Assembly (NCBI RefSeq): GCF_032362555.1
Contig: NC_083506.1
Location: forward strand, 8,603,501 to 8,667,500
Length of the DNA stretch: 64,000 bases
Direction: 5' to 3'
DNA from: Amyelois transitella
Taxonomy: Eukaryota; Arthropoda; Insecta; Lepidoptera; Pyralidae
Every line of letters begins with the position of its first letter. Position 1 is the stretch's first letter. The position numbers were made by a program, and so were the translations under genes. Below are positions 1-36,594 of the stretch, in pieces. The notes below the pieces were generated by a model. That model searched no databases and had not been told where the DNA came from. It saw only the letters and a program-made list of their open reading frames with translations.

Positions 1-660
1 AAACTTCATTTTTCGAAATTGATTGTTTTAAAACTTTAATTTGTGTTGATTATATAAGAACTTACTAGTTCCTGTTATTCATTATACATTAATAAATTGA
101 TTGATATAATTTATACGGCGTTTATTATGACATTAATTGAAAAATTAGTAGAAAAAAAATTATCAATATAAAAAACCGATTATTTTCTTAAGAAAAATCG
201 ATTATTTATTAATCGATTTTTCATACTTAAGAAATAAACTGATTAAATAAAAATTGATTTTTTATCAGCAATGTCCATCCCTACTGTCATATCTTTTGTC
301 AGTGCGGTCTGTGGCAGTGTTGCCACATGTAGAAGTTGGTAGCATTTTTAAGGTAGATCTACCGACTTTGCCCTCAGTCTACCTGTCTACCAACATAAAC
401 ATCAAATCTACCTATTTTTCGAAATTTTCTTACTGTACATACATAAAATGACGCCTCTTTCCAGGAGGGCTAAAGAGGTAGTCTCTGCCAAAATTTTCTT
501 TTTTGTTTTATTTTCTTATTTTTATAATTTTATGAAACGTAAATTTAAATAATTTTATTTATGAATAAAGGAATTAAAAGTAAAAAAAGTTGTCAAAGCA
601 ATTATTGAAAAAAAATATAAAAAAATCTTACTGAAGGAATAGGCGGTATTCTATTAAGAT
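1..660. other. AT-rich intergenic DNA with one LINE-tail fragment
   Basis: Very AT-rich sequence with no convincing gene. Positions about 436-490 carry a degraded copy of the 'catacataaaat...cctctttcc' repeat. That repeat recurs through the window and marks the 3' end of an RTE-like LINE (compare 10600-10675). Nothing else is supported here. Confidence 0.6.
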
Positions 661-672
661 TTAGATAATTTT

Positions 673-960
673 TTGTCAAAAGACTATGCCATTCTTATTT
701 CACCGGTATTGATTTCACCTGAAGAGTTCTGGAAGCATGTTTCATTAATCAAAAAAGGAGACCAGTATCCAATGTTCCCTCTGCAAAGTCAATTCATTAG
801 AAAATTACTGGCACTTCCTTATAGTTGTGCCGATCTTGAGAGATTGTTTTCCTCTATTAATAATATGAAAACACTCTAGAGGCTTTGTTACATACCAAAA
901 GGTTTATCACAAAGAATAATAGGCAGCCTAGTAGTAATCATTTAAAACTTTTTAATAAGA
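673..960 (+). pseudogene. hAT transposase C-terminal fragment
   Basis: A 68-codon open stretch ends in a block resembling the hAT family C-terminal dimerisation domain: the order is FPLQSQFIRKLLALPYSCAD, then LERLFSSINNMKT. In intact hAT transposases this block follows the catalytic core and is followed by a short basic tail. Here the frame stops straight after NNMKTL, and only faint similarity continues to about 960. No catalytic core, BED finger or terminal inverted repeats are visible. I read it as a dead, heavily truncated relic. A domesticated use cannot be excluded but nothing supports it. Confidence 0.55.
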
Positions 961-1165
961 ATATGTAGGTATAAAATAACAAACAATAAATTAAATATTT
1001 ATTTTTTGTTAATTTTTATTTTAAAAAACCTATAAAGTTAAGGTGGTGGTTCTACCTATTTTTGATCTTGGATTCTACGAAAGCGATTCCAATTTCAAAA
1101 ATGGAACTCTTTAGCAATAATAATGAGTAAAAATTTCATTCAATTGTTGTTATTGTAAGTGTAAG

Positions 1166-2162
1166 TTAACTCAACAAGAAAGATCAGTAGACTTCGATTG
1201 GCCTTTCATAATGAAGCCCCATCTCGTGCCACTCTTTACAACTGGTTCAATGAATTTAAGCGTGGTCGGTCTAATCTCACCGATGATCTGCGTGAGGGAC
1301 GGCCTTCTACGGCGACGATTGAAGAAAACATCAGTGTTGTGCGGCGTATGATAGAGGCTGACAAAAGTGTTACTTATCAGCAGATTCGGACAAGTCTAGG
1401 CATTGGTATGAGCCAAATCCATAAAATCCTCCATGAACATTTAGAGGTCAGGAAGCTTTTTGCCCGGAGGATACCCCATAATTTGACTGAGGCCCAAAAA
1501 CGCCGTCGTGTTAATTGGTGCCGTGATATGATTGAAAATTTAATGGAGGTGACTCAAATGCCGTATTCAACATACCTACTTACGGGTGACGAAAGCTGGA
1601 TTTATTGTTATGATTCAGAAACTAAAAGGCAGTCGGCCCAGTGGATGTTTCCGTTCGAGGAGTTTCCCACAAAAGTGAAGAGAGGTCGAAGTGTGGGAAA
1701 AAAGATGGTGGCTTCGTTCTTCGGAAGGACAGGCGATTACGCAACAATTGTTTTAGAGGATCAAAAAACAGTTAATGCAGAGTGGTACACCAATATTTGT
1801 TTGCCACTTGTCTTTGAAAAAGTTCGGGAGAAACGACCTCGCAGTATCAATCCTCCTTCATCACGACAACGCCTCGGCGCACACCGCCAGGCGAACCATA
1901 GACTTTTTAGAGACATCAAATGTGGAATTACTGGGTCACCCGCCATACAGCCCCGACCTTGCACCTGGTGATTTCTATTTATTCCCCAAAAAAAAAAAAA
2001 CTTCGCAGTAAACGTTTTGTGAACGCTGAGGAAGCAGTCGCTGCATTCGAAAGGGCCGTCGAAGAGACACCTAAGGAAGAGTGAGCAAGGTGCTTCTCCC
2101 AATGGTTCCATCGGATGCAGCGATGTATTGACTTAAAGGGACACTATTTTGAAAAGATATAA
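1166..2162 (+). pseudogene. mariner transposase pseudogene
   Basis: This is a decayed mariner-family (DD34D) transposase. The N-terminal helix-turn-helix region is present, including EAPSRATLYNWFNEFKRGR near 1210-1270 and the EGRPSTA linker. The first catalytic Asp is in TGDESWIY, the second in HHDNASAHT (about 1855), and the third in YSPDLAPGDFYLF (about 1945-1985). The copy is broken in at least four places. There is a frame change near 1190, and another near 1840 just before the second Asp. A run of A near 1990 shifts the frame again, and a TGA replaces the Trp expected in the EEW motif near 2082. The normal C-terminus GHYFEKI ends at 2162. It cannot make transposase. Family membership is certain from motifs; the subfamily was not determined. 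Confidence 0.88.
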
Positions 2163-2262
2163 AACTAATATTATAGTAGAATGCTCAGTTTTTGATTTTC
2201 TAAAAAAATTCAGTTTGACCCTCGTACCAGCTTCAACCGATTTTTGGCACATTATTTACAAA
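2155..2262 (+). repeat. mariner 3' end plus flank, inverted partner of 9744-9830
   Basis: The stretch running out of the mariner pseudogene, past 'gaccctcgtaccagcttc' to about 2262, recurs in reverse complement at about 9744-9830. The shared block extends beyond the likely mariner terminus, so the two are copies of a larger repeat or a duplicated locus rather than independent mariner insertions. They bracket the large Helitron palindrome on both sides. Confidence 0.7.
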
Positions 2263-2911
2263 TTTTCTAAAATTAGGCAGCAAAGGCGAAATATGTGTAA
2301 TCTATTACATGTACTACACGAACAGAAAAATTAGCTTCGCTTGCCCATTTTAAAAAAAAATTGGCTCTGTAGATAACGCGTGAAGAGACAACAAGCAAAC
2401 ACTAACTTAAACTTTCTTTCGCATTTATAATATTATTTGAAATTGAAATTAAAATAGTATGAAACTTTCTTATAAAGTTATGGACGTAATGGAATCTCCA
2501 TGAATAAACTGCTTATGTTAATTTGGTAACTAGTACATAAATGTGAAATTTTCCGGTCCAAGGATTTGAATAGCACAACATAATAAGTCCTTTCCGTCGT
2601 ATTTCACCTTAAAGGTATGTAGAATGATGAAGAAGGATGTTTTAACTGTGAACAGGTTACAAACTTTAGAATTTATAATAGGTACCTATTACTTACTTAC
2701 CTAGTCGTGATAAATAAAAACCAAAGAAAGTGAAATGACTAAATAACGTGAACGAGCAATAATTGTTTTTTCTTCAGTAGGTGTACTCATACATAAATCC
2801 TTTACATAGGATGCTATGGCGGTTAGGGAAACAGCTTTTTGATTAGATATCAAAAATATTCTGTGAATTATTCAGCTTCTAAAGTCTTCATCTTCATTCA
2901 TCATATTACAT

Positions 2912-2979
2912 ACATCTATATCTATATCTATCTATATCTATATCTTCTATCTTCTATATCTATACTTATAATAAATCTA
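2912..2979. repeat. TATC-rich microsatellite and 21-bp Helitron 5' stub
   Basis: A run of tatcta/tatctt repeats precedes the Helitron. Positions 2959-2979 repeat the first 21 bases of the Helitron that starts at 2980 (TCTATACTTATAATAAATCT, then A). The 5' terminus is therefore present twice in tandem, once as an orphan stub. Confidence 0.75.
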
Positions 2980-3039
2980 TCTATACTTATAATAAATCTG
3001 TAGAGAGGTCAATTCTGTACATTGAATATATTTTCAAAA

Positions 3040-3307
3040 CTAGCTATGCCTGCGACTTCGTCCGCGTGGAATAGTTATTTTGGGCATCATTGAAGCCCTC
3101 AAGGATGCTCCTTCCCCGATATTTTTCACATCTTCCATTATTTCTTCGCTCCTAATAGTTGCAGATAGACGTTATATAGCCTAAAGCATTCCTCGATAAA
3201 TGGTCTATTCAACACAAAAATAATCTTTTAAATCGAACCAGTAGTTCTTGAGATTAGCACATTCAAACAAACAAACAAACTCTTCAGTTTTATAATATTA
3301 GTATAGA
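3040..3307 (-). mobile_element. small Lep1-type Helitron forming the 3' end of the inner copy
   Basis: Mirror image of 9086-9353. It has TC at 3307 and CTAG at 3040 on the minus strand, 268 bp, with the 'gcggacgaagtcgc' subterminal block. It could once have moved on its own, but here it serves as the 3' terminus of the larger 3,187-bp unit. Confidence 0.75.
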
Positions 3308-3711
3308 TTAATATAAGATCGTGGCAAGTGGAAAGAGGTAATCTCTGCCTACCCCTCCGGGAAAGAGGCATGATTTTATGTATGTATGTACAAATCTAAG
3401 TGCCTATTTAAACTAAAGAAAATATTCTAATATAATTATAATCAGAAATATGTACCTACAACTTACAAAATAAAAAGAAATGAGAATAAAGTTGAAACGC
3501 CTGTGCAATACTGTCTTGCCGTCGTCGGGTCTTCCCATACTCCCTTAAGGGAGTCAGAGTACATTGGTCAGGGTTTTTGGCCCTCTTCAATGGCATCATC
3601 GCTGCCTATGACTGTAGGCAGGTCGATGGGGTGGCCGTGACGGCCTGGGTCTTCACGTCTTCATACACTGGGAGTTCCCATCGGCGGCGGCGTTGTCACT
3701 GGTCGACGACG

Positions 3712-4080
3712 TCAGCCGCGAGGCAGCGAGGGGAGGGTTTCACCCGATGGCCCGGAGGGCGGGCGTGGAGCGGCGCGGTGCCGCGCAGGTGGCTGTGTGA
3801 TGACGCGTCCGCCCTCTCGAATATCTAGGTTCTCCCACTTCAGGTCCCTGAGGATCGTCGAGTTCCTTACGTAGCACGGGGCTCTGTCGACTGCTCTGAG
3901 ACTTTGGTTCTCTTGGGCTCTGAGTCTTCTCCTGTTGGTCTCAGAGCAGAATGCGTACCACGCCGGGGCCGCGTACGTGAGGCGGGATCTGACGTACGTT
4001 TGGTAGATCCCGAGCTTCGTCCTCAGGGGGAGGCTGGAGGAGAGAACTGCGTGAAGTCTCCCCCTGGCTGCCTTGGTCAT
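3712..4080 (-). pseudogene. captured Jockey-type reverse-transcriptase C-terminal fragment
   Basis: Open for 122 codons. It contains LRTKLGIYQTYVRSRLTYAA and PAWYAFCSETNRRRLRAQEN, then YVRNSTILRDLKWENL. This order is typical of the segment just C-terminal to the reverse-transcriptase core in Jockey-clade LINE ORF2 proteins. The catalytic YADD region, endonuclease and the rest of ORF2 are missing. It is a fragment carried inside the inner Helitron and is identical to 8313-8681. It is GC-rich against the AT-rich Helitron around it, which supports capture. Confidence 0.75.
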
Positions 4081-4103
4081 GAAGCTTACGCTCGCCTCCT
4101 GCC

Positions 4104-4112
4104 CCTTTTATA
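4104..4112 (-). promoter_or_regulatory. TATA box upstream of captured RT fragment (inner copy, distal unit)
   Basis: TATAAAAGG on the minus strand, in a GC-rich setting, 24 bp upstream of the ATG at 4080. Mirror of 8281-8289. The match to consensus is strong; promoter activity is inferred. Confidence 0.4.
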
Positions 4113-4699
4113 CCCTGCCGCCGCTAGCCGCGTCGAGCGCGGCAACCGTTACGCAAAAATAATCCTTATAGCATGATTCAGTATTTACGCGCGATGGCTT
4201 GTTAGGGTATTTTATTTCATGTATAAGTTTGGTGTTTCTATACCGATTTCGATGATTCTTTTTTTATTGAATAGGTACTTATATTAATTTTAAGAATAAC
4301 GAATGAGTGTGAGTGTTATTGGTATTATAAACATCAGAGTAAAGAAATATAATCAGAAATCTCCGAACTGCTAAGCTATTAGGAATTAAACGTGTTATTG
4401 TGAGTCAACTATAAAAGATAGACTTATGCTGTCGTGGGATATTTTATTAATAATTTTATGTAGAATATTTCCGTTATACATGGTTTCGCTGTATCTTTAA
4501 CCATTAAGGCTTCACACGCGACGGAAGCTTAAAAAATCAAGTAACTTCTCCCGTTTTCCCAACATTTCCTTTCACTGCTCTGCTCCTAGTGATTGTAGCG
4601 CAATGAAAAGTATACTATAACCTGCTCAGGAGTATGAAGAATACCTGTACTAAGTTTCATTAAAATCCGTCCAGTAGTTTTTGTTTCTATAAAGAACAT

Positions 4700-4732
<33 letters not shown>

Positions 4733-5131
4733 AAATTTACTGATTGCATTTTTGGCATCAGTATCGATCACTAATCACCCCCTGATAGTTATTTTAAAAA
4801 TATATTCCATGTACAGAATTGACCTCTCTACAGATTTATTATAAGTATAGACAACTTACAAAAGAAAAATAAATGAAAATAAAGTTGAAACGCCTGTGCA
4901 ATACTATCTTGCCGTCGTCGGGTCTTCCCACACTCCCTTAGGGGAGTCGGAGTAGATTGGTCAGGGCTTTTGGCCCTCTTCAATGGCATCGTCGCTGCCT
5001 ACGACTGTAGGCAGGTCGATGGGGCGGCCGTGGCGGCCTAGGTCTTCACGTCTTCATACACTGGGAGTTCCCATCGGCGGCGGCGTCGTCACTGGTCGAC
5101 GACGTCGCTGCAAAGCAGCGAGGGGAGGGTT

Positions 5132-5476
5132 TCACCCGACGGTCCGGAGGGCTGGCGTGGAGCGGCGCGATGCCGTGCAGGTGGCTGTGTGATGACGCGT
5201 CCGCCCTCTCGAACATCTAGGTTCTCCCACTTCAGGTTCCTGAGGATAGTCGAGTTCCTCACGTAGCGCAGGGTTGTTTCCGACGACTGCTCTGAGACTT
5301 TGGTTCTCTTGGGCTCTGAGTCTTCTTCTGTTGGTCTCAGAGCAGTATGCGTACCACGCCGGGGCCGCGTACGTGAGGCGGGATCTGACGTACGTTTGGT
5401 AGATCCCGAGCTTCGTTCTCAGGGGGAGGCTGGAGGAGAGAACTGCGTGAAGTCTTCCCCTGGCTGCCTTGGTCAT
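5132..5476 (-). pseudogene. captured Jockey-type RT fragment, frameshifted copy
   Basis: Diverged tandem relative of 3712-4080. The two agree through RAQENQSLRAV, then a one-base difference near 5285 shifts the ORF out of the YVRNSTILR frame, so the C-terminal part reads as unrelated residues. Identical to 6917-7261. Carried in the inner Helitron, with a TATA box at 5500-5508. Confidence 0.7.
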
Positions 5477-5499
5477 GAAGCTTGCACTCGCCTCCTGCC

Positions 5500-5508
5500 C
5501 CTTTTATA
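5500..5508 (-). promoter_or_regulatory. TATA box upstream of captured RT fragment (inner copy, proximal unit)
   Basis: TATAAAAGG on the minus strand, 24 bp upstream of the ATG at 5476. Mirror of 6885-6893. Confidence 0.4.
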
Positions 5509-6884
5509 CCCTGCCGCCGCGAAACGCGTCGAGCGCGGTAACCGTTACGCAAAAATAATTCAGTATTTACGCGCGATGGCTTGTTAGCGTATTTCATTTC
5601 ATTTATAAGTTTTGTGTTTCTATACCGATTTCGATGTTTCTTTTTTTATTGAATAGGTATTTATATGAATTTTTAAGAATTACGAATGAGTGTTAGTCTT
5701 ATTGGTATTATAAACGTCAGAGTATAGAAATATAATCAGAAATCTCCGAACTGCTAAGCTATTAGGAATTACTCGTGTTATTGTGAGTCAACCATGACAG
5801 ATAGACTTATGCTGTCTTGGGATATTTTTTTAATAATTTTATTTAGAATATTTCCGTAATACATGGTTTCGCTGTAGCTTTAACCATTAAGGCTGCACAC
5901 GCGACAGAAGCTTAAAAAATCAAGTAACTTCTCCCGTTTTCCCAACGTTTACTTTCACTGCTCTGCTCCTACTGATTGTAGCGTAATGAAAAGTATACAA
6001 TAACCTGCTCAGGAGTATGAAGAATAACTGTACCAAGTTTCGTTAAAATCCGTCAAGTAGTTTTTGTTTCTATAAAGAACATACAGACAGACAGACAGAC
6101 AGACAAAAATTTTACTGATTGCATTTTTGGCATCAGTATCGATCACTAATCACCCCCTGATAGTTATTTTGAAAATATATTCAATGTACAGAATTGACCT
6201 CTCTACAGATTTATTATAAGTATAGATAACTATCAGGGGGTGATTAGTGATCGATACTGATGCCAAAAATGCAATCAGTAAAATTTTTGTCTGTCTGTCT
6301 GTCTGTCTGTATGTTCTTTATAGAAACAAAAACTACTTGACGGATTTTAACGAAACTTGGTACAGTTATTCTTCATACTCCTGAGCAGGTTATTGTATAC
6401 TTTTCATTACGCTACAATCAGTAGGAGCAGAGCAGTGAAAGTAAACGTTGGGAAAACGGGAGAAGTTACTTGATTTTTTAAGCTTCTGTCGCGTGTGCAG
6501 CCTTAATGGTTAAAGCTACAGCGAAACCATGTATTACGGAAATATTCTAAATAAAATTATTAAAAAAATATCCCAAGACAGCATAAGTCTATCTGTCATG
6601 GTTGACTCACAATAACACGAGTAATTCCTAATAGCTTAGCAGTTCGGAGATTTCTGATTATATTTCTATACTCTGACGTTTATAATACCAATAAGACTAA
6701 CACTCATTCGTAATTCTTAAAAATTCATATAAATACCTATTCAATAAAAAAAGAAACATCGAAATCGGTATAGAAACACAAAACTTATAAATGAAATGAA
6801 ATACGCTAACAAGCCATCGCGCGTAAATACTGAATTATTTTTGCGTAACGGTTACCGCGCTCGACGCGTTTCGCGGCGGCAGGG

Positions 6885-6893
6885 TATAAAAGG
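6885..6893 (+). promoter_or_regulatory. TATA box upstream of captured RT fragment (outer copy, first unit)
   Basis: TATAAAAGG at 6885-6893 lies between a GC-rich block ('gcggcggcaggg') and the ATG at 6917. It is conserved between both tandem units, although the sequence around it differs by several substitutions. Confidence 0.4.
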
Positions 6894-6916
6894 GGCAGGA
6901 GGCGAGTGCAAGCTTC

Positions 6917-7261
6917 ATGACCAAGGCAGCCAGGGGAAGACTTCACGCAGTTCTCTCCTCCAGCCTCCCCCTGAGAACGAAGCTCGGGATCTACCAAACG
7001 TACGTCAGATCCCGCCTCACGTACGCGGCCCCGGCGTGGTACGCATACTGCTCTGAGACCAACAGAAGAAGACTCAGAGCCCAAGAGAACCAAAGTCTCA
7101 GAGCAGTCGTCGGAAACAACCCTGCGCTACGTGAGGAACTCGACTATCCTCAGGAACCTGAAGTGGGAGAACCTAGATGTTCGAGAGGGCGGACGCGTCA
7201 TCACACAGCCACCTGCACGGCATCGCGCCGCTCCACGCCAGCCCTCCGGACCGTCGGGTGA
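6917..7261 (+). pseudogene. captured Jockey-type RT fragment, frameshifted copy
   Basis: Begins MTKAARGRLHAVLSSSLPLR and contains the LTYAAPAWYAYCSETNRRR block of Jockey-clade LINE ORF2 C-termini. The frame shifts near 7108, so the expected YVRNSTILRNLKWENLDVRE segment lies in another frame. No catalytic residues are present. It sits in the first 1.4-kb unit of the outer Helitron. Confidence 0.7.
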
Positions 7262-7660
7262 AACCCTCCCCTCGCTGCTTTGCAGCGACGTCGTCGACCA
7301 GTGACGACGCCGCCGCCGATGGGAACTCCCAGTGTATGAAGACGTGAAGACCTAGGCCGCCACGGCCGCCCCATCGACCTGCCTACAGTCGTAGGCAGCG
7401 ACGATGCCATTGAAGAGGGCCAAAAGCCCTGACCAATCTACTCCGACTCCCCTAAGGGAGTGTGGGAAGACCCGACGACGGCAAGATAGTATTGCACAGG
7501 CGTTTCAACTTTATTTTCATTTATTTTTCTTTTGTAAGTTGTCTATACTTATAATAAATCTGTAGAGAGGTCAATTCTGTACATGGAATATATTTTTAAA
7601 ATAACTATCAGGGGGTGATTAGTGATCGATACTGATGCCAAAAATGCAATCAGTAAATTT

Positions 7661-7693
<33 letters not shown>

Positions 7694-8280
7694 ATGTTCT
7701 TTATAGAAACAAAAACTACTGGACGGATTTTAATGAAACTTAGTACAGGTATTCTTCATACTCCTGAGCAGGTTATAGTATACTTTTCATTGCGCTACAA
7801 TCACTAGGAGCAGAGCAGTGAAAGGAAATGTTGGGAAAACGGGAGAAGTTACTTGATTTTTTAAGCTTCCGTCGCGTGTGAAGCCTTAATGGTTAAAGAT
7901 ACAGCGAAACCATGTATAACGGAAATATTCTACATAAAATTATTAATAAAATATCCCACGACAGCATAAGTCTATCTTTTATAGTTGACTCACAATAACA
8001 CGTTTAATTCCTAATAGCTTAGCAGTTCGGAGATTTCTGATTATATTTCTTTACTCTGATGTTTATAATACCAATAACACTCACACTCATTCGTTATTCT
8101 TAAAATTAATATAAGTACCTATTCAATAAAAAAAGAATCATCGAAATCGGTATAGAAACACCAAACTTATACATGAAATAAAATACCCTAACAAGCCATC
8201 GCGCGTAAATACTGAATCATGCTATAAGGATTATTTTTGCGTAACGGTTGCCGCGCTCGACGCGGCTAGCGGCGGCAGGG

Positions 8281-8289
8281 TATAAAAGG
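8281..8289 (+). promoter_or_regulatory. TATA box upstream of captured RT fragment (outer copy, second unit)
   Basis: TATAAAAGG, 24 bp upstream of the ATG at 8313, flanked by GC-rich sequence. Same arrangement as 6885-6893. Confidence 0.4.
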
Positions 8290-8312
8290 GGCAGGAGGCG
8301 AGCGTAAGCTTC

Positions 8313-8681
8313 ATGACCAAGGCAGCCAGGGGGAGACTTCACGCAGTTCTCTCCTCCAGCCTCCCCCTGAGGACGAAGCTCGGGATCTACCAAACGTACG
8401 TCAGATCCCGCCTCACGTACGCGGCCCCGGCGTGGTACGCATTCTGCTCTGAGACCAACAGGAGAAGACTCAGAGCCCAAGAGAACCAAAGTCTCAGAGC
8501 AGTCGACAGAGCCCCGTGCTACGTAAGGAACTCGACGATCCTCAGGGACCTGAAGTGGGAGAACCTAGATATTCGAGAGGGCGGACGCGTCATCACACAG
8601 CCACCTGCGCGGCACCGCGCCGCTCCACGCCCGCCCTCCGGGCCATCGGGTGAAACCCTCCCCTCGCTGCCTCGCGGCTGA
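8313..8681 (+). pseudogene. captured Jockey-type RT C-terminal fragment, open copy
   Basis: 122 codons, open from MTKAARG to LPSLPRG. It keeps the Jockey-like order LRTKLGIYQTYVRSRLTYAA, RRRLRAQENQSLRAV, then CYVRNSTILRDLKWENL in one frame. It is a short C-terminal piece of a LINE ORF2 without catalytic motifs. Carried in the second unit of the outer Helitron and identical in sequence to 3712-4080 on the other strand. Confidence 0.75.
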
Positions 8682-9085
8682 CGTCGTCGACCAGTGACAA
8701 CGCCGCCGCCGATGGGAACTCCCAGTGTATGAAGACGTGAAGACCCAGGCCGTCACGGCCACCCCATCGACCTGCCTACAGTCATAGGCAGCGATGATGC
8801 CATTGAAGAGGGCCAAAAACCCTGACCAATGTACTCTGACTCCCTTAAGGGAGTATGGGAAGACCCGACGACGGCAAGACAGTATTGCACAGGCGTTTCA
8901 ACTTTATTCTCATTTCTTTTTATTTTGTAAGTTGTAGGTACATATTTCTGATTATAATTATATTAGAATATTTTCTTTAGTTTAAATAGGCACTTAGATT
9001 TGTACATACATACATAAAATCATGCCTCTTTCCCGGAGGGGTAGGCAGAGATTACCTCTTTCCACTTGCCACGATCTTATATTAA

Positions 9086-9353
9086 TCTATACTAATATTA
9101 TAAAACTGAAGAGTTTGTTTGTTTGTTTGAATGTGCTAATCTCAAGAACTACTGGTTCGATTTAAAAGATTATTTTTGTGTTGAATAGACCATTTATCGA
9201 GGAATGCTTTAGGCTATATAACGTCTATCTGCAACTATTAGGAGCGAAGAAATAATGGAAGATGTGAAAAATATCGGGGAAGGAGCATCCTTGAGGGCTT
9301 CAATGATGCCCAAAATAACTATTCCACGCGGACGAAGTCGCAGGCATAGCTAG
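9086..9353 (+). mobile_element. small Lep1-type Helitron forming the 3' end of the outer copy
   Basis: TC at 9086 preceded by A, CTAG at 9350 followed by T, 268 bp. It starts TCTATACTAATATTATAAAA and ends with the 'ccacgcggacgaagtcgcag' block typical of small moth Helitrons. No coding capacity. Confidence 0.8.
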
Positions 9354-9687
9354 TAGGTACATATTTCTGGTTATAATTCTATTAGAATATTTTTTTTAGT
9401 TTAAATAGGCACTTAGATTAATCTATACTTATATTATAAAACTGAAGAGTTTGTTTGTTTGTTTGAATGCGCTTATCTCAAGAACTACTGGTTCGAATTG
9501 AAAATCTTTTTGTGTTGAATAGACCATTTATCGAGGAAGGCTTTAGGCTATATAACGTCCAGCTGCAACTATTAGGAGCGAAGAAGTAATGAAAAATGTG
9601 AAAAAAATCGGGGAAGGAGCATCCTTGAGGGTTTCAATGATGCCAAAAATAACTATTCCACGCGGACGAAGTCGCAGGCACAGCTAG
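9354..9687 (+). mobile_element. tandem repeat of Helitron flank plus second small Helitron (9422-9687)
   Basis: Bases 9354-9421 repeat, with a few changes, the 65 bp at 8934-8998 ('gtaggtacatatttctg...ggcacttagatt'). They are followed by another small Helitron with TC at 9422 and CTAG at 9684-9687, again between A and T. The arrangement is a tandem duplication of flank plus Helitron directly downstream of the large element. Confidence 0.75.
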
Positions 9688-9743
9688 TACATACATAAAA
9701 TCACGCCTCTTTCCCGGAGGGGTAGGCAGACAATAAATAAAAT

Positions 9744-9830
9744 AAATAATGTGCCAAAAATCGGTTGAAGCTGGTACGAGGGTCAAACCGAAAGTTTTTA
9801 GAAAATCAAAAACTGAGCATTCTACTATAA
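9744..9830 (-). repeat. inverted copy of the mariner 3' end at 2155-2262
   Basis: Reverse complement of the mariner terminal region, beginning 'ataatgtgccaaaaatcggt' and running to 'ctactataatatta'. The mariner body is missing beyond about 9830, where the sequence switches abruptly to the 'atatcccttgcagggtagac' repeat. Confidence 0.7.
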
Positions 9831-9841
9831 TATTAAATCTA

Positions 9842-9985
9842 TATCCCTTGCAGGGTAGACAGAGCCAACCGTCTTGTATGGCAGATAGGCCATGTTAAGC
9901 TGTGAGGCTTAATGATAGAATTGAGATTAAAATAGTGACAGGTTGCTCTCCCATCCCCTTAATAAGAATCCCAACCTATATAAGT
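9842..9985 (+). repeat. 'tatcccttgc-gggtagacagagcc' moth repeat, truncated
   Basis: Member of a dispersed repeat family with this order: catacata tail, 'tatatcccttgcggggtagac', 'tagtgacaggttgctagccc', and finally 'gccgggaaccacacggcac'. This copy breaks off near 9985, where LINE coding sequence begins. Better copies lie at 15527-15770 and 47148-47420. Confidence 0.65.
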
Positions 9986-9988
9986 CCT

Positions 9989-10675
9989 TAATTTTGATTG
10001 GAGGAGAAAAAGTTGAGCAAGTGAAAGAGTTTGTATATCTAGGATCAAAGTTTACATCAGATGGCAAGTGTGATTTTGAAAGGAGAGTGAACGCGGAGAA
10101 CATGGTGAATGGAGCTTTGCATGCCTTTATGAGCAGTCAGAAACTATCCAAAAAGGCTCGACTGATTGTGCATAGGGGCGTGTTGTTCCCGACATTAATG
10201 TATGGGAGTGAAAGTTGGGTATGGCAAAAGAAGCACGAAAGCAGTATAAATGCAGTGGAAATGAGAGCGTTAAGGAGTATAATGGGTGTGACATTGAGTG
10301 ACCGGATAAAGGAACAGCGTGATAAGGGAATGTTGTGATGTGAAAGAAGATGTAGTTAGAGGAATAGAAAAGGGTATGTTAAGATGGTTCGGTCATATGG
10401 AGAGGATGGATGAAAGCAGGTTGACTAAGCAGATATACAAGGAGAGTGTGGAGGGAAAGGTCGGAGTGGGAAGAGCTAGACGAAAGTATCTTGATCAAAT
10501 TAAGGACCTCCTGGTAAAGGTTCAGGTCAAAAGTACCCGAAACCGTGAGCTTGCATGAAGAGAGTTATGAATGTGCATGAAGCGAAGGAAGTATGCAGAG
10601 ATCATGGCAAATGGAAAGAGATAGTTTCTGCCTACTCCTCCAGGAAAGAGGCGTGATTTTATGTATGTATGTATC
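9989..10675 (+). pseudogene. RTE-like LINE, 3' end of reverse-transcriptase ORF
   Basis: The reading frame has the C-terminal signature of RTE-type LINE proteins: EFVYLGSKFTSDGKCDFERR, FPTLMYGSESWVW, RALRSIMGVTLSDRIK, then RWFGHMERMDESRL. A frame change near 10320 splits it into two ORFs (9943-10338 and 10319-10558). Read through a stop at 10557, similarity continues to CMKRVMNVHEAKEVCRDHGKW. The copy ends with 'cctccaggaaagaggcgtgattttatgtatgtatg', the tail that recurs through the window. It is strongly 5'-truncated, as is usual for LINEs, and cannot move on its own. Confidence 0.82.
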
Positions 10676-11200
10676 CTTAAGTCGCCTCTTATAGATAGGC
10701 TTATATCAAGACATCCATGGGAAAGAAATTGAGTGGTCCTATTCTTTTTTATATTCGTGCTGGAAACCACACGGCACGGGCTTCTAAAGTAGGATAGTAT
10801 TTTATATAGATGGGCCGGGCTGCAGCTTAATCTAGTCGTCAATAAAACCATTTTTTTTAAGTACATTTAATTTTTTTTTAATAATAAATATAAAGACCTT
10901 CCACATAGACATTTTTCTTTCCTGTAGTAAAACTTATAGTAGATACTATTATTTATTATTAATACATATATCAGTATAATCACATCTTTATCACTTCCAG
11001 GATAGACAGATAAGAGCCAAGTGTCTTGAAAAGACTAATAGGCCACATTGAGCTGATTGACTAAATGAAAAGAGTTGAGATTGAAATAGTGACAAGTAGC
11101 TAACCCATTGCCTCTATCAAATCCCAGATTAATAAGCCTATTGGGACATCCATAGGAAAGGACAGGTCCTATTCTTTTTTCTATTGGTGCCAGGAACAAC
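10676..11200 (+). repeat. two fragments of the 'gggtagacagag...ccacacggcac' repeat
   Basis: 10676-10800 carries the distal part ('aagacatccatgggaaagaa', 'accacacggcacggg'). 10985-11200 carries a fuller but diverged copy, from 'cacttccaggatagacagat' to 'gccaggaacaaca'. No coding sequence. Confidence 0.6.
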
Positions 11201-11478
11201 ATATTATAATAGGCTATTTGACAAAGTTCTAAAAACTATCTTAGGCTATTTATTTGTTTATAAGGAGCCCTACAAAAATACTTTTCTAAAAAAAAAAAAA
11301 AAAATGCAATATTCAAATATGCCTCCAAAACGCGACTTTTAGCAATATGGCGGCCATGGCATGCAGTGACGTAAATTTCGTGTAAATATCATACAAAGCT
11401 TGTTGGTGTTTCGAAAAGTTTTTATTTTCTCTTGTTTTATTTAACTTGTGCCACGTCATATGTGTGAAAATTATTAAA

Positions 11479-11607
11479 ATGAGTTCCTATAAATATTGTG
11501 CAGTGCCTCAATGCACTAATACAACAATAAAATCTCCTACGAAACTGTTTTTTTCTATGCCGATGGATTTGAATATTCGCAAGAAGTGGTTTCAGATCAA
11601 GATCTAA
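11479..11607 (+). pseudogene. THAP zinc-finger N-terminal stub
   Basis: 42 codons. It has the spacing of a THAP C2CH finger start: CAVPQC, then KLFFSMP and RKKWFQ (conserved Pro and Trp). The distal Cys/His ligands are missing because the frame ends at KI-stop, near the internal deletion junction. THAP domains bind the terminal sequences of P-type transposons, consistent with its place in a transposon. It is not expected to fold as a full finger. Confidence 0.6.
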
Positions 11608-11633
11608 GATCAGTGATAACCACCAAGATATAC

Positions 11634-11765
11634 TTACATTGATGTTTTCACATTCCTCAGTTCGGCAGCATAGAAATCTGGATTGTTTTTGAAGAAGACG
11701 CCAACCATTATTGCGTCCACTTTTGGTAGGTTTCGACTGTCAGCTTTCGCGGAAGTGGTTTCCAT
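11634..11765 (-). pseudogene. second gene stub, convergent to THAP stub
   Basis: 43 codons, [20 protein letters not shown] then [20 protein letters not shown]. The final ATG-TAAGT looks like a splice donor, so this may be a first exon whose remainder has been deleted. It resembles, from memory, the N-terminus of insect transposon-associated proteins with SWIM and YqaJ-like nuclease domains. That assignment is tentative. Confidence 0.35.
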
Positions 11766-12627
11766 TATTAAATACCTATGTTATCTGCTATAGCGATCTA
11801 ACACTTATACAATCTTGAAAAATAATAGCGAACACTAAAGAACGGTACGATCCACAGTCTGTTTATGGATAATTGACGTCATAATAGAAATAGCCAATCA
11901 CGTTCGTTTTTAGTCACGTGACAGCTGCATAAAAAACCCTAATTTTCTGAGATGGATTTTGTTAAAATAATGCCATATTTTTATCTCGCGTTAATACCAA
12001 TCGCTCCAAAAAAATAACATTAAGACTGATGACATAAAAGAAATGTATATTTTTAATACAGTCAAATAGCCTATTATTAATAATATTTTCATGTTCAAAA
12101 TTTGATGTCAAATTTAATATCACAAATAAACTAATACGGACACGGTATTTGGTGTTACTCTTTTGTTAATCAGGTAGGTATCACACTCATACTAATTTGT
12201 ACAAGACAATGACTTTGTCCCAGAAAGTCAATCTACTATTATACCACATGAAGGAAATTTCTCTTCATTTTGTGTCCTTCACTTATGCTTGTACTCATTT
12301 TTTATAACAAAATCATTTCCTTCTATTTCAATTTTGTCATACATCCATTTTCTATTAACCCTGAAATATTAATGTTAACATAATGTTTAAGCACTGGTGG
12401 TCAAAAGTTAAGGTTTCTAACTTTAAAAAAAAGCCTTATTGTTTCATGCTGTAAGCTGTCAGTTCAGTACAAATAATTTAAAGATATTGTATTATGTAAA
12501 TCAAAGTTTAATACTTATTTGTAAACTACTAAGGGCAAAAAAATTGTTAAGTATTAGGACATAACAGTTTCAGGTATCTACTAATACAATATTAACAGGT
12601 AACTAGGTAGGTACCTAGTTCGATTAC

Positions 12628-15177: not shown

Positions 15178-17903
15178 ATGGCCGATACAAGTAAAGACCA
15201 GTCAGTTACCAAAATTATGATTTATGTATGTGGAGGTATGTATTACTTTCTACAGGTTTATCAGCCCCCAATAGCTGTTTTCCTCCTTGCAATTCCAAAC
15301 TTTAGTATCCGCGCGGAGCCGCAGGCAAAAGGTACCATTACAATATTTTTTTATAATATTTTGTATGGTTTCCCAAATTTAGTATTTCAGTAAAATACTT
15401 GGTTAAAGGTCTTTAAAAGCCAGGACTATTCAGCATTTATTCATGTTATGTTCAAACTGTGTGGGGCCAGTAATTTAATAAATAGGTTGGGTTGGTGGGT
15501 GAAAAGCAAAGTGTTAACTACAAGTCATACATACATACATGTAATCACGTCTATATCCCTTGCGGGGTAGACAGAGCCAACAGTCCTGAGCGGACTGATA
15601 GGCCACGTTCAGCTATTTGGCTTTAAGATAGAATTGAGATTTGAATAGTGACAAGTTGCTAGCCTATCGCCTAAAAAGTAGTCGCCTAGTCGCCTTTTAG
15701 GACATCCATGGGAAAGAGATGGAGTGGTCCTATTCTTTTTTGTATTGGTGCCGGGAACCACACGGCACTACAAGTGAACTACAAGTCACTACATGGAATC
15801 ATCAGTAAATTCTTATAACACATCCTCAATGCTTTTGTGCAATGCCATTATGAGTTTGGGTATTCCTTTTTAAATGTTGACTGGAAAAAATTCCAATAGG
15901 GTCTGCTATTGTAAAAATAACTTTGCAATTCAATTTCTGTATTTTATTTTGTTGCATTTTAACAATGTTGTTGTATTAATTATATTTTTATTTTTTCAGA
16001 ATGTCATAAAGAAAATGAAATAAAACCAAAAGACCCAATCAGATGTAGAGAATGTGGATATAGAATCATGTATAAGAAGCGGACTAAGAGATGTATCCTT
16101 TTAAAATTATGTATTAGTTAGGTTTCTTGGCAAAAACCGAATCCTATTATTTTGCCATTATATCAGTCTGACCATGTAAAATATCCCCCTTCTCTTTAAA
16201 CATTACAAAGAAGAAAAATATTTGGTTTGACAATATGTACATAATAAAAACTTCAAAACAAAAATAATTTGAACATGTTTCATGAACATAATTTGAACAT
16301 GTTTCATTAACGTGTTTCAAAAATTTGTTTAGAAAATTTTAATTCTTTATTTTATGTGTGTAATATTTGACATTACACAGAAAAAAAAGAATTAAAATTT
16401 TAATAAAGTAATAAGTATCTATTTATTTTTTAATTAAATTTTCACAAAAGATAATTACTTATAATGTTTTTGGGATCACTGAATAGGCTATTTGACAAAG
16501 TTCTAAAAACTATCTTAGGGTATTTATTTGTTTATAAGGAGCCCTACAAAAATACTTTTCTGCCTTTATTACAGCTATTTTATTAACAAATCGAAAAAGA
16601 AAATGAAATATTCAAATATGCCGCCAAAACGCGACTTTTAGCAATATGGCGGCCATGGCATGCAGTGACGTAAATTTCGTGTAAATATCATACAAAGCTT
16701 GTTGGTGTTTCGAAAAGTTTTGATTTTCTCTTGTTTTATTTAACTTGTGCCATGTCATATGTTTGAAAATTATTAAAATGAGTTCCTATAAATGTTGTGC
16801 AGTGCCTCAATGCACTAATACAACAATAAAATCTCCTACGAAACTGTTTTTTTCTATGCCGATGGATTTGAATATTCGCAAGAAGTGGTTTCAGATCATG
16901 ATCTAAGATCAGTGGTTACCAAGATATACTTACATTAATGTTTTCACATTCCTCAGTTCGGCAGCATAGAAATCTGGATTGTCTTCTTCAAAGACAATCC
17001 AGATTTCTTCTTCCAACCATTATTGCGTCCACTTTTGGTAGGTTTCGACTGTCAGCTTTCGCGGAATTGGTTTCCAGTATTAAATACCTATGTTATCTGA
17101 GTAATCCTGAGCGATCAAACACTTATAAAATCTTGAAAAATAATAGCGAACACTAAGGAACGGTATGATCGACAGTCTGTTTATGGATAATTGACGTCAT
17201 AATAGAAATAGCCAATCACGTTCGTTTTTAGTCACGTGACAGCTGCATATAAAAACCTAATTTTCTGAGACGGATTTTGTTTAAATAATGCAATATTTTT
17301 ATCTCGCGTTATTACAAATCGCTCCAAAAAAATAGTATTAAGACTGATGACATAAAAGGAATGTATATTTTTAATACAGTCAAATAGCCTATTGTCATGC
17401 TTGGCTTTATGAAATATTTATTTATCATATTCTACTATTGGTTCTCACTTTAGAAGATACAGTGTCTTGGTTAATTCCTATGTGCATGTTTTGCTGGTAA
17501 GTAAATTTGTTGTTGTATGAAAATTTTGTATTTTTTTTTTACTAATTATTCTGCTTGTTTCAGTCCTGCATGATAAATAACCTAACTCCAACCAAAATAG
17601 TTTGACCAGATTAGGTTTTGAAGTTTCATGTTTTGTTTAAAAGTTATGCATTTGGGTTAGGGTCTTCATATTTATGTTGTTATGTTATGTTTGTATTATG
17701 TTATGTTACTAATTGAGTCTATATCACTTTGACCTTATAAAAATGTTTAAACATTTACATATAAATAGCACTGCTTTCCTGGAACAGTAGCCACAGAATA
17801 CTTCTTTTAACTTGCCACTATCCCTGCATACTTTTTTCGTACATCAATATTATTAAAATTATCCTGAACTTATATTTCAGTGGTTGTTTTTGATGCTCGC
17901 TGA
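15178..17903 (+). CDS. Rpb12: RNA polymerase subunit RPB12/RPABC4 (POLR2K)
   Basis: Three exons: 15178-15235, 16000-16092 and 17881-17903, joined at GT-AG introns in consistent phases, giving a 57-residue protein. The core reads [20 protein letters not shown], then [17 protein letters not shown] and LVVFDAR. The paired CGEC and CREC motifs form the zinc ribbon. RPB12 is the smallest subunit common to RNA polymerases I, II and III; it bridges RPB2 and the RPB3/RPB11 assembly platform. Length and sequence match eukaryotic homologues almost end to end, so the gene appears intact. Intron 1 carries a dispersed repeat (15527-15770) and intron 2 a P-like transposon (16482-17393). The tiny last coding exon (23 nt with stop) would be easy for automated annotation to miss. 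Confidence 0.95.
15527..15770 (+). repeat. best + strand copy of the 'cttgcggggtagacagagcc' repeat
   Basis: Starts with (CATA)n, then 'cacgtctatatcccttgcgg', 'gataggccacgttcagctat', 'tagtgacaagttgctagcct', 'acatccatgggaaagagatg', and ends 'gccgggaaccacacggcac'. About 240 bp, non-coding, lying in Rpb12 intron 1. The family occurs at least ten times in this window, in both orientations, and behaves like a SINE or a LINE 3' end. Confidence 0.7.
16778..16906 (+). pseudogene. THAP zinc-finger stub, copy 2
   Basis: 42 codons, differing from copy 1 at only two residues (Cys for Tyr at position 6, Met for Lys near the end). It keeps CAVPQC and RKKWFQ, and lacks the second half of the finger. Confidence 0.6.
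16968..17008. repeat. local inverted duplication inside P-like copy 2
   Basis: 18-bp arms 16968-16985 and 16991-17008 ('aaatctggattgtctt' and its complement) around a 5-base loop. Copy 1 has the plain sequence at this point, so the hairpin arose by a local strand switch. Confidence 0.8.
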
Positions 17904-28763: not shown

Positions 28764-29031
28764 CTAGCTATGCCCGCGACTTCGTCGGCGTGGAATAGTT
28801 GTTTCGGGCATCATTGAAGCCCTCAAGGATGTTGCCCTCATTTTTTCCCGTTTTTTTTCAAATATTCCATTATTTCTTTGCTCCTCATAGTTGCAGCGTG
28901 ATGTTTTATAGCCTAAAGCCTTCCTCGATAAATGTTGTATTTAACGCAAAAATAATTTTTCAATTCGAACTATTACTTCCTGATATTAACGCGTTCAAAC
29001 AAACTCTTCAGCTTTATAATATTAGTATAGA
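28764..29031 (-). mobile_element. small Lep1-type Helitron upstream of the schnurri start exon
   Basis: Minus-strand TC at 29031 to CTAG at 28764, between A (28763) and T (29032), 268 bp. It is of the same family as 9086-9353 but more diverged, so it is an older insertion. It lies in what should be a 5' intron of schnurri. Confidence 0.75.
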
Positions 29032-32500: not shown

Positions 32501-32920
32501 AACACTTTATTGCAGGAAAAGACAAAACAGGTTATCAGATGATGAACATCTCGATGCTCTTAAACTAGTTAAGAATATGAAAAAGACTTCATCTTACATT
32601 ATCACATGCCATTGTAGCATAACATTTAGGTAAGTCGATTTCAACGGCACATTATATTATGCTATGACAATATGACAGCTGTTTCGCGAATGGCATGTGA
32701 GACGAGGAAGGGGCGCGGGGCACTTGTTGCGTTGTTTGGTTGGCGTTCTCGCCTGTTGCCGAACATCGACGTCACGCTACGACCTTGAGCCACGCGGCAC
32801 TGAGAAGGTTATTTCTTCGTCTTCTATATAAGCAAACAAGCCGCATAATCTAATAAAACTATCAGTGCAAATGATCATACATTAATTCGTTCATACTTAT
32901 TTCACTGCTATTATTTTTAT
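29040..32920. other. schnurri 5' flank / probable 5' intron sequence
   Basis: About 3.9 kb with no convincing coding exon. GC-rich islands stand out at about 30078-30145 ('ccgccgcccgccggcctggc', forming a GC hairpin), 31190-31265 and 32690-32800. They could be promoter or 5' exon sites of schnurri transcripts on the minus strand. The open frames 30949-31206 and 32253-32525 have no recognisable domains. A 'tatataag' box at 32825 on the plus strand lies 39 bases before a TCAGT initiator-like site, which is too far for a standard core promoter. Confidence 0.35.
29470..29506. repeat. (TA)n microsatellite
   Basis: About 18 uninterrupted TA units. Expected to be length-polymorphic. No other role seen. 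Confidence 0.9.
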
Positions 32921-32922
32921 TA

Positions 32923-34969
32923 TAGTAGAACCGCCTAAATGAGTCCTCGCCCGCGGAGTACAGGGGCGCGGGGGTATGACGACGAAGGGGAACGAAAGAG
33001 GTGCGGGCGGCGGTCGAGCGTAGCGTGTAATACAAGGGGCGAAATGTTACTGGACATTTCTTGAGATATGTGACGTCATAGTGGTTAGCGGCAAACAGGT
33101 GAAGATTTTTATTAAAAAAATAATAATGGCTATACAAAATTTGAATGAAACAACTGTAAACTATACAACGTGTTCCTTTTGTTATCCCATAACTCCATGG
33201 TATCAACGAGACCACGTACATGAATTAAATAGCATAAGCATTTTTCGATTATTGTTATTTTCAAATTTTTATTTTTCATACAAAACAATTCGATAAAAAT
33301 GTGATTTTATGATATATAGGTATGATATGTAGGTAAAAAAAAGGTAATAAAGTTATGTATGTAATATTTATTTATGCAAAATTTATCAAAATTATAAATC
33401 AATCACTTATGTCCATAATATCACTATCACTGGAACTTGATTCTTCACTTTCACAACAGCCATCATCAGAATCATCAGAATCGTCTTGCACATTAATAAT
33501 AAAATCAACAACTTCATCTAGGACTCCATCATGTTTGCAATATTCGTCTTCGATTTTAATCACGTGTTTAACACAATTCTCCCATTTCTCTTTGGGATAT
33601 TCAGCAAATAATCTCTCTAATATTTCTTTTTTCTGGTCCAAATTAGAGTCGATACTTTTTTGTGCTAATTGTCCTTTGATATCACCCCAGACCAACTCAA
33701 TTGGGTTCAGGTCTGGGTGATATGGAGGCAAACGCAATACTTCGTGTCCGTTTCTTTTCAATACCTCGTCAATTTTGTAAATATCTTCTGTGAAATTACT
33801 TTTAATTAATTTATATAAGTCATCCTTTCTAAGTTTTTCATCAAAAGGCACGTTATGTCGTCGTAGCCATTCTTGCATAGTTGGCTTGGTAGAAGCCATA
33901 GTTGGCTTTTTCTCTTCTCGAACCGAATGATAAGCTGCGTTGTCCATTACTATGACAGAATTTTGCGGTATATTAGGCATGAGCTTTTCATTTATCCATT
34001 TACTGAAATTTGCGAAATTCATAGAATCGTGATAATCACCTGTTTTACATTTGGATTTGAATATCACAAGGGCTCCGTCTACAAATCCAATTTGACCTCC
34101 ACAATGTACGATGATCAAACGGTCCCCTTTACCAATATGAGATAGAACGCCAAGTTCATCCTTTGATTGCCAACATTTTGAAACGTTATGAGACGCGTTT
34201 ACATAAGTTTCGTCAAGGTATAAAATATGTCTTCCTTCTCTACGATATTTTTTAATAGTATTTAGGTATTTCCACCTCCACGATGTGATATTTGGCTGTT
34301 CGATAAGGAGTTTCCTTTTAGATCCGCATTTCTTAAATTTAAAACCTAGATCATGTAATAATAGCCTTAAATATTCCCTGCCGCAGTGTAATATATTCTC
34401 TTCTCTAAGTACAGCGTTCAAAGTTTTCAGAGTAGGTATTTTTTTGAAAATTGTGTAAAACTGAGTGACTTTTCTTCTTACCACTCCTTTTGTGAAATCG
34501 TCTATTTCCACTCTTTTTCTACGAACCTGTTTTGGTTTTCTCGGTGATTTAAATCTCTCGTTGTCATTTAATGCTTTCCCTTGTTGTACAATTCTAGATA
34601 CAGTCTTTTCTGATAGTCCAGTAACTTCTGCTACAGTTTTATTTAAAGGTATATCTTGTTTATATTCATCAGAATTTGGGTCGAGTTTCTTTTTTCTAAA
34701 ATATTCATATACGTTAAACGCCATTTGTTTGCACTGACTATTAATTCTATGTCCGAAAATATTTCGACTCATCTTGAGAATGTAATCTCATGTATAATTT
34801 TCACAAGGCGTCCGCAACTGTCAACACGTGTGATCGCTAACCGCGTAGCGAGCGAACTGAGTTTTTACAAGAATGCGCCCGCCGCCCGCACCTCTCTCGG
34901 TCCCCTTCGTCGTCATACCCCCGCGCCCCTGTACTCCGCGGGCGAGGACTCATTTAGGCGGTTCTACTA
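32923..34969 (-). mobile_element. intact IS630/Tc1-like DNA transposon with long GC-rich TIRs
   Basis: About 2,047 bp. Ends read TAGTAGAACCGCC... and the complement, forming terminal inverted repeats of about 90 bp (32923-33015 and 34876-34969) with a strikingly GC-rich core ('ccgcggagtacaggggcgcg'). TA lies on both sides (32921-32922 and 34970-34971), consistent with TA target duplication as in the IS630-Tc1-mariner superfamily. One uninterrupted transposase gene occupies the middle. The two TIRs are almost identical and the gene is open, so the copy appears young and possibly still active. Confidence 0.85.
33399..34772 (-). CDS. DDE transposase, 457 aa, wide D-E spacing
   Basis: Single open frame from the ATG at 34772 to a stop at 33399. 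The N-terminal third contains helix-turn-helix signatures (VAEVTGLSEKTVSRIVQQG near residues 48-66). The catalytic core follows: first Asp in ILYLDETYVNA, second in NSVIVMDNAAYHS, and Glu in PPYHPDLNPIELVW. The second Asp and the Glu are separated by 81 residues, far more than the 34 of classical Tc1/mariner. The extra stretch (EEKKPTMASTKPTMQEWLRR and onwards to IYKIDEVLKRNG) is typical of a distinct group near IS630-Tc1-mariner. The C-terminus is very acidic and Ser-rich (DDSDDSDDGCCESEESSSSD). All catalytic residues are present and there are no stops. It cuts and pastes the surrounding element. Confidence 0.9.
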   Translation of the reverse strand: MSRNIFGHRINSQCKQMAFNVYEYFRKKKLDPNSDEYKQDIPLNKTVAEVTGLSEKTVSRIVQQGKALNDNERFKSPRKPKQVRRKRVEIDDFTKGVVRRKVTQFYTIFKKIPTLKTLNAVLREENILHCGREYLRLLLHDLGFKFKKCGSKRKLLIEQPNITSWRWKYLNTIKKYRREGRHILYLDETYVNASHNVSKCWQSKDELGVLSHIGKGDRLIIVHCGGQIGFVDGALVIFKSKCKTGDYHDSMNFANFSKWINEKLMPNIPQNSVIVMDNAAYHSVREEKKPTMASTKPTMQEWLRRHNVPFDEKLRKDDLYKLIKSNFTEDIYKIDEVLKRNGHEVLRLPPYHPDLNPIELVWGDIKGQLAQKSIDSNLDQKKEILERLFAEYPKEKWENCVKHVIKIEDEYCKHDGVLDEVVDFIINVQDDSDDSDDGCCESEESSSSDSDIMDISD

Positions 34970-36594
34970 TAGTAAGATACGGAATTACTGTAAAAAAAAT
35001 TTTAACTCGATGTAACATTCCATTTTATTTAACGTGAGTAATTCTTTGTATTAGATTATTATTCCGTTTAAATAAATACTGCCATTGATAGCCTAGATTT
35101 GCCAAATAAGGTTCAAAGTAAAAGAGTTATGGATTTCTCACACTCTAACGATATTATACAATATTATTTTATTACAATTTATTTCAACGAACAAAACCGA
35201 ATTCATTTTAAACATCAACGTGTTTGGCAACGTAGGTATTGAGTAAATGTGTTGGCCGATCCGGACGGGCGCCATGATGTCGCGTGGGCGGGAAACCCGT
35301 CTTGGTAGCGAGCAATAACTAATATGGTATCGAAATAAATAGGAAAGTAACTTTTAAGTGTAATTTAATGCAAAAGGCTTTTTTATTTGATTCACGAGAC
35401 CAGTTAATTTCAATTTCAACAATTGTATTATTTAAATGTGACTATAAAAGCAAAGAGTGTACGTACTTGCATATAGGTATAAATTGTAACCAAATTACTA
35501 TATGATTGTTCGGGCTTCCCTTGGAACCAGGTCATCGTCTGACTGGCCTGACCGCTAGCCGTCCAACCAACTCCCAACTCGAGCGAACAACAATCCAATC
35601 AAATATCCATTTTATAGTAGGTCGGTATCTCGGTAGTTCATATTCTTCGCGTTGCTTTCATAAGGTTTAAAATAATAAGAGTGCATTAGTACCTACTCGA
35701 CTAGTGAGTTTGTTCCTAACCTGCATACATCAAAATTCTGGAACTGGCGCACGCCGCGCGCGTCACCAAAAAAAAAGGTTTAGTTTGCAATCTATCAGCA
35801 ATTGACACGAAATTAGGTACTCAAATATATTGTTTTGGTATTATTTGAATTTAAGCGGGCTCCGATTTCATTTTCGTACATATTTTTCCAAGTCCAATGA
35901 TTTTACAAACAAACAAAAAGATTAGATTATAGTATTTCCTGGAATATCTTCCACATTTATGACCAGACCTTAACCAAATTTCTATAGGACCAATCGGACA
36001 CTACTCTTTTCAATGCAAAAATATTTTTTCTAATCGAATTATTAATACCGGAGATATGCGGTTAATGTTTATAAACCATAAGTGTACTTAAGGTACTCTT
36101 GGAGAGAAAAAGATAACTCTTAGGAGAAGCACATTAGGTAAGTTCAATTGCAAACATAATCGACATGTGCGTATGGCCAGACCCTCACTCCTCACATATA
36201 GGATTGAAAGCTTTTTTTTTACTAAATCCTGAACATATTTTTAAAGAATTGTGCAGGAGTGGCCCCTAGATCACACGCACATTAATCGACCATGCCTGCA
36301 AATAGCTAGATATCCATAGGTATCTAGTACCTACAATCAGAAAACACTTGTATCAAGAGAGTATGGCGTCATTCTCTGCGAATTCAGGCGTTCGCAAACC
36401 AACGACTTAAATACGGAGTGTATGAATGTGACAATAATATGTGTGAGTCAACCTAAGCCAGTCAATACCACTTGCCCAAATAAATACGTATTAATTGCGT
36501 TGCACTTACCTCTTCAGAAATGAACAACGCTAAATTTATTTCCTTATATTGCATTACTTTCTTGTTTGTGAGTATTAACTACTTGGGTATATTC

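Follow-up and report, generated by a model that had tools for sequence, protein, structure and literature searches.

How does a long inverted repeat whose arms do not differ at a single position come to lie at one place in a genome, and what was copied to make it? This question is raised by a 6.4-kb palindrome near the start of a 64,000-nucleotide stretch of the genome of the pyralid moth Amyelois transitella (RefSeq assembly GCF_032362555.1, contig NC_083506.1, positions 8,603,501 to 8,667,500 of the forward strand; hereafter the window, with positions counted from its first base). An earlier note on this DNA had ascribed the palindrome to a Helitron inserted antisense into another copy of itself. 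We find that the locus instead combines two members of one Helitron family, a resident that we term E0 and a second element, V, nested in it, and that the palindrome probably arose in three steps, namely insertion of E0, insertion of V into E0, and re-insertion of a chimera of the two in antisense into its own donor.

The two arms (3039-6167 and 6226-9354) are reverse complements of each other without a mismatch (0/3129) or an indel and have a constant mirror sum of 12,393 (3039+9354), and the 58-bp spacer between them (6168-6225) is the reverse complement of 2981-3038, both as reported earlier. A general repeat search recovered this pair as the longest inverted repeat in positions 1-12000 and in the whole window; the second-longest pair of the window (435 nt) derives from the same locus as a by-product. 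The 3187-bp unit present in both copies, which we call U, comprises 2980-3039 plus 6227-9353 in one copy and occupies 3040-6226 on the minus strand in the other, and comparison of the first with the reverse complement of the second gave 0/3187 differences. On the minus strand the antisense copy reads A / TC...CTAG / T, and its insertion point is an AT dinucleotide 60 bp into E0; U holds 241 such dinucleotides, 10 of them starting within its positions 1-60.

Self-alignment of U revealed a segment of ~1.38 kb that occurs twice at 92.4% identity as a tandem of 1375 and 1393 bp, with the 1375-bp E0 segment matching its partner in V at 94.3% identity over 1370 gap-free columns. The right flank of the palindrome (9354-9419) in turn matches 8935-9000 in the interior of V (95.5% identity over 66 bp), and relatives of the element elsewhere in the genome are continuous across the point where V interrupts E0, without a break. 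The right-flank match and the relatives together place V within an element that begins at 2980 and resumes beyond 9353. The resident is therefore not a single 3187-bp Helitron spanning 2980-9353, as had been supposed, but an element of 1709 bp that extends to 9687 and has a family member nested in it at G^T.

E0 lies on the plus strand in separated pieces (2980-3039, 6227-7541 and 9354-9687) between the flanking bases A2979 and T9688. Its initial 60 bp (TCTATACTT...CAAAA; 2980-3039), which directly follow A2979, have a start that matches family members. The second piece (6227-7541), which gives 1375 bp when joined to the first, ends with GTAAGTTG at the interruption by V. Beyond V the element resumes with TAGGTACATATTTC... 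(9354-9421), as recognized by comparison with V and the relatives, and its 3' part (9422-9687) ends in CTAG before T9688. V, also on the plus strand, is 1812 bp long (7542-9353), has TC...CTAG ends, sits in E0 at G7541^T9354 and belongs to a subgroup different from that of E0. The antisense copy extends from the first base of E0 to the last base of V, and so consists of the 5' part of E0 plus V; it shares with V a start at TCTATACTT.

These observations modify the earlier statement that all four ends of the structure obey the A^T rule. The bases A2979, T9354, A3039 and T6227 were read correctly, but A2979 and T9354 are not the two flanks of one insertion: U encloses another complete member of the family (7542-9353), and the element begun at 2980 goes on to the right of 9353, so that these bases belong to two different insertions. 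Thus, the antisense copy (A3039/T6227) and E0 (A2979/T9688) each sit at an A^T site with no duplication of the target, V with its G^T being the exception. The termini of E0, V and the antisense copy (TC...CTAG) agree with the 5' TC and 3' CTRR of canonical Helitron1-type Helitrons, and the locus has the make-up of a self-inserted composite, in that resident and insert share family and termini, are nested, and meet at junctions placed on termini. Both E0 and V further carry a GTCTGTCTGTCTG run, a (CTGT)n microsatellite following the 5' subterminal region that is a feature of Hel-2 elements, and a GTCT run lies at about U 123-146.

The same junctions bear on whether the palindrome is real. Long palindromes are a known class of artefact, and 100% identity over 3 kb is compatible with a fold-back or chimeric read or with collapsed haplotypes. 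We would expect a fold-back, however, to give one inversion point and a copied outer flank, whereas here the flanks differ on each side and there are two inner junctions, both exactly on independently confirmed termini at AT. What the inner junctions have in common with the outer flanks amounts to just A at one and TA at the other (1 and 2 bases), which is what an AT target predicts and too little for a repeat-driven misjoin. We accordingly regard an artefact of assembly or sequencing as unlikely. Template-switching events during replication or repair also make inverted repeats, and a real inverted duplication of this kind, formed without a transposase, could use the shared A and TA as microhomology and owe its 0 differences to later gene conversion. 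It would nevertheless need two switches, both hitting TC and CTAG termini, while the shared bases are already predicted by an A^T target; an origin of this kind strikes us as highly improbable.

Relatives of the element and the source of the antisense copy

We searched the assembly (327,366,114 bases in 33 contigs) with U 61-560 (500 bp) as query, and the 40 of 758 candidates that were scored gave 41 places. Two of these are the palindrome arms (100%); the best of the other 39 reaches 98% over the 500 bp. About 7 kb was fetched around the best 20 of the 39 non-self places, and these 20 are the relatives discussed here. An end could be assigned in 16/20, and in each (16/16) CTAG is followed by T; together with starts at TCTATACTT, this provides independent confirmation of the ends of the unit. 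The base before TCTATACTT is A in 12/20 and T in 8/20. The distance from TCTATACTT to CTAG is 1550-1800 bp in 13/20, one of which (L062) is a deleted composite, and three relatives (L044, L046 and L048) have a longer and different 3' part that likewise has CTAG before T. The usual element of the family would therefore appear to be ~1.7 kb long, and comparison with the fetched relatives identifies E0 as a usual member of 1709 bp and V as a usual member with an extra insertion. This insertion (~80 bp; 9001-9080, edges approximate) is a repeat tail that recurs at 24743, 44259 and 10599-10673, and it is found neither in E0 nor in the 16 of 20 relatives with a readable junction.

The size of the usual member speaks to the possibility that a 3187-bp Helitron family already existed and that one copy of it inserted antisense into another lying here. 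While both ends and their A^T flanks fit such a family, the unit observed in the family is ~1.7 kb, E0 continues past V, and the 3187-bp form occurs in 0/20 relatives, with the best non-self match among the scored candidates remaining at 98%. We consider this reading very unlikely.

E0 and V are of separate origin within the family. The nearest relative of E0 is L047 (97.1%) and those of V are L057 and L058 (95.9% each), compared with 94.2% between E0 and V. In a tree of the 13 relatives of 1550-1800 bp (L062 included; L044, L046, L048 and L049 were left out for want of an assigned end, L050 and L060 as short, and L059 as a composite), V groups with L057, L058 and L062 (support 0.999; 0.193 for V with L057 alone) and E0 with L047 (0.948). 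Relative to the same 13 members, 12 substitutions are private to the E0 part of U and 32 to V. Both arms, being identical, carry all of these, implying that the antisense copy was made after they arose or that the arms were homogenized later. Local duplication as the origin of the 1375/1393-bp tandem was rejected on the ground that the two elements belong to different subgroups.

These data allow the donor of the antisense copy to be sought. A chimera running from the 5' end of E0 to the 3' end of V must come from a source in which V sits in E0, and this locus is such a place, since E0 resumes at 9354. A tandem or chimera of U was present in 0/20 fetched relatives, neither the E0|V junction nor the V-specific insertion having been searched genome-wide. 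Taken together, the need for V within E0, the lack of the chimera among these relatives, and a best non-self match of 98% against 100% between the arms make it most likely, as far as the sequence informs us, that this locus gave rise to the copy, which then re-inserted into its own donor at a point 60 bp inside it. A sister chromatid, an allele or a lost copy would then not have been the donor. The scope of the genome search leaves some room for a copy made from an allele or from another chimera since lost or missing in the assembly; yet a recent second copy should rank above the 98% matches, and we think this origin quite unlikely. Hence, the earlier account holds in so far as an antisense 3187-bp TC...CTAG unit does lie at A^T inside an identical unit, but 'another copy of itself' is better replaced by 'its own donor', as no other chimera was found in the answered part of the genome search. 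Its further statement that the event must be recent fits the 0 differences but is not proven by them, for gene conversion between the arms can also keep them identical.

Antisense nesting is seen elsewhere in the family. The relative L059 has, at ~3013-3685 in its 3' part, an antisense related Helitron of ~670 bp, the ends of which we read as TCC...CTAG at A^T once the cut is moved by one base. A separate locus, L062, has one junction (~2760-2922) in common with this insertion; the composite thus seems to be older and to have transposed.

Proposed history of the locus

Three nested insertions with terminus-exact junctions, the membership of E0 and V in distinct subgroups, the chimeric make-up of the antisense unit and the identity of the copy can be read directly in the assembled locus, and the history that we regard as probable is built upon them. 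First, E0, as a 1.7-kb non-autonomous Helitron, would have inserted at A2979^T9688. Second, V, an 1812-bp member of the other subgroup, would have entered E0 at G^T in the same orientation. Third, a transposase supplied in trans would have started at the 5' end of E0 and stopped at the first 3' terminus that it reached, that of V, yielding a chimera of 3187 bp, probably circular, in which two 5' ends are combined with a single 3' end. Insertion of this chimera in antisense at the AT 60 bp inside E0 would leave donor and copy as a perfect palindrome. For FoHelis with multiple 5' ends, the published model has the nick made at the leftmost 5' terminus and the process ended by the first 3' terminus (PMC5148889), and circles and AT targets are described in the Helraiser reports (PMC4778049, PMC5876387). 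The circle, the source of the transposase and the correctness of the assembly are presumed by this history.

Several points weigh against it. The flanks of V (G7541/T9354) depart from the A^T rule, the true 5' end of E0 could lie within 2915-2979 rather than at 2980, and the fold of the 3' hairpin is weak, being no better than that of shuffled sequences (z 0.15 and 0.72). In the Helraiser study, the new insertions (701 retransposition sites) showed no clustering around their donors (PMC4778049), and a landing in the donor is therefore not expected by preference. By simple arithmetic, a random insertion would hit a 3.2-kb target in 327 Mb about once in 100,000 times; Helitron insertions are many, and re-entry of the donor may be no more than a rare accident picked up by a scan for oddities. 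The composite in L059 makes the palindrome more ordinary in kind, even though self-identity and a labelled donor keep the locus unusual. Finally, the structure is read from assembled sequence, with a small chance that it reflects a misassembly or a library artefact.

The return to the donor might, on the other hand, not have been a matter of chance. In vitro, the Helraiser transposase is reported to cut the bottom strand of the left end at an internal AT (PMC4778049), and the antisense copy lies within the left end, likewise at an internal AT, oriented as if its plus strand had been joined to the bottom strand. That the palindrome is a by-product of normal left-end chemistry, pointing to a self-targeting pathway by which active Helitrons generate long palindromes, is an idea that we hold to be unlikely.

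Other features of the locus and the window

Directly upstream of E0, 2915-2979 (plus strand) consists of a TCTATA-like repeat together with 21 bp that nearly copy the start of the element. Variable TCTATA/TCTTCTA-like extensions of at least 4 nt precede TCTATACTT in 11/20 relatives (L043, L045, L047, L048, L049, L051 and L057-L061), as judged by a loose pattern without a control, and the 3' flanks of the relatives do not resemble the other half of this repeat. Such repeats may be added or alternative 5' ends. At the opposite side, 9688-9730, just right of the end of E0, is 97.7% like 9007-9049 in the 80-bp insertion of V, and similar tails occur at 435, 10627, 24754, 44266 and 48861; we take the likeness to be a probable coincidence, both resembling a multi-copy repeat tail. 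The tail right of 9687 was rejected as a part of E0 on comparison with the relatives.

The 268-bp 3' part of V (9086-9353, plus strand) resembles a small free-standing Helitron of 268 bp at 28764-29031 on the minus strand, which has A/T flanks and matches the corresponding parts of E0 and V at 80-81%. We rejected the reading of these 266-268-bp 3' parts as later insertions of small Helitrons, as the 3' part is standard in the family relatives; the family itself may have begun as a fusion with an element like that at 28764-29031. An open reading frame (ORF) within V (8313-8681) matched 0 Pfam families and looks like a captured retroelement fragment. Rfam gave 0 matches at the gathering score, and the ORF list contains none longer than 122 aa at the palindrome locus, no search having been made for an autonomous partner (RepHel). 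Exact-pattern scans gave 0 or 32 matches in viral contigs and 2 in bacterial and archaeal contigs, and 0/34 of these stretches match U at E 1e-3.

Outside the locus, a 103-nt inverted repeat (2156-2258 and 9743-9845; 94%) flanks the palindrome out of register with it, and an ORF with a Transposase_1 domain (1198-1971) lies near its left copy. At 32917-34975, 100-nt inverted repeats (96%) surround a 457-aa ORF (33399-34772) with a DDE_3 domain in what looks like a possibly intact DNA transposon. Two direct repeats of ~900 bp (11208-12075 and 16482-17393; 90% identity, 5.3 kb apart) are possibly long terminal repeats or a duplicated repeat, and a 97-nt inverted repeat (47323-47419 and 48578-48674; 98%, 1158 nt apart) encloses two short ORFs. 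ORFs of the window also include C2H2 zinc fingers, an Rpn13 domain and transposase domains.

Known systems and significance of the locus

The closest parallels that we found are the FoHelis of Fusarium oxysporum, for which self-insertion and chimeras running from the leftmost 5' to the first 3' terminus have been proposed (PMC5148889). As in FoHeli composites, family members are nested and several 5' termini accompany one 3' terminus; antisense nesting was there put forward as an explanation of reversed ORFs. Whereas both processes are proposed there to explain composites, here they appear in one locus with intact termini, an identical copy and a perfect palindrome (PMC5148889). The family also resembles lepidopteran Hel-2 (PMC4344730) in being short and non-autonomous, with TC...CTAG ends, A/T flanks and (CTGT)n near the 5' end, but differs in its length of ~1.7 kb and an apparent captured retroelement fragment. 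Hel-2 membership is defined by at least 65% identity to the 250-bp Hel-2 consensus (PMC4344730); the present family is likened to Hel-2 by the features just listed.

Combined Helitrons of the silkworm, new elements formed from two others (PMC3789558), are comparable in that the 3' part here resembles the free-standing 28764-29031; neither antisense self-insertion nor a resulting palindrome is mentioned in the extract of that paper considered. With Helraiser (PMC4778049, PMC5876387) the locus shares the AT target and TC/CTAG ends and, in the history proposed, circular intermediates and reuse of the donor; it differs in that Helraiser shows no local hopping and encodes its own transposase (PMC4778049), whereas no ORF above the length given earlier is listed here.

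The kind of event is thus already known, and what looks new is the clean match of donor and product together with the perfect palindrome, though the literature covered, with few subscription journals, cannot prove the case to be unpublished. In our judgement, tracing nested Helitrons to their donor is usually hard; here donor and product can be matched because the copy carries a chimeric label that the nesting itself created. The two proposed steps, the passage from leftmost 5' to first 3' terminus and antisense self-insertion, would be recorded at one locus with their termini intact, and a route is laid out from a replicative transposon to a long perfect palindrome, a fragile structure. If transcribed, such a palindrome could, speculatively, feed hairpin RNA. 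Should a survey of many genomes show an excess of antisense insertions close to left ends, self-targeting by Helitrons would become directly testable.

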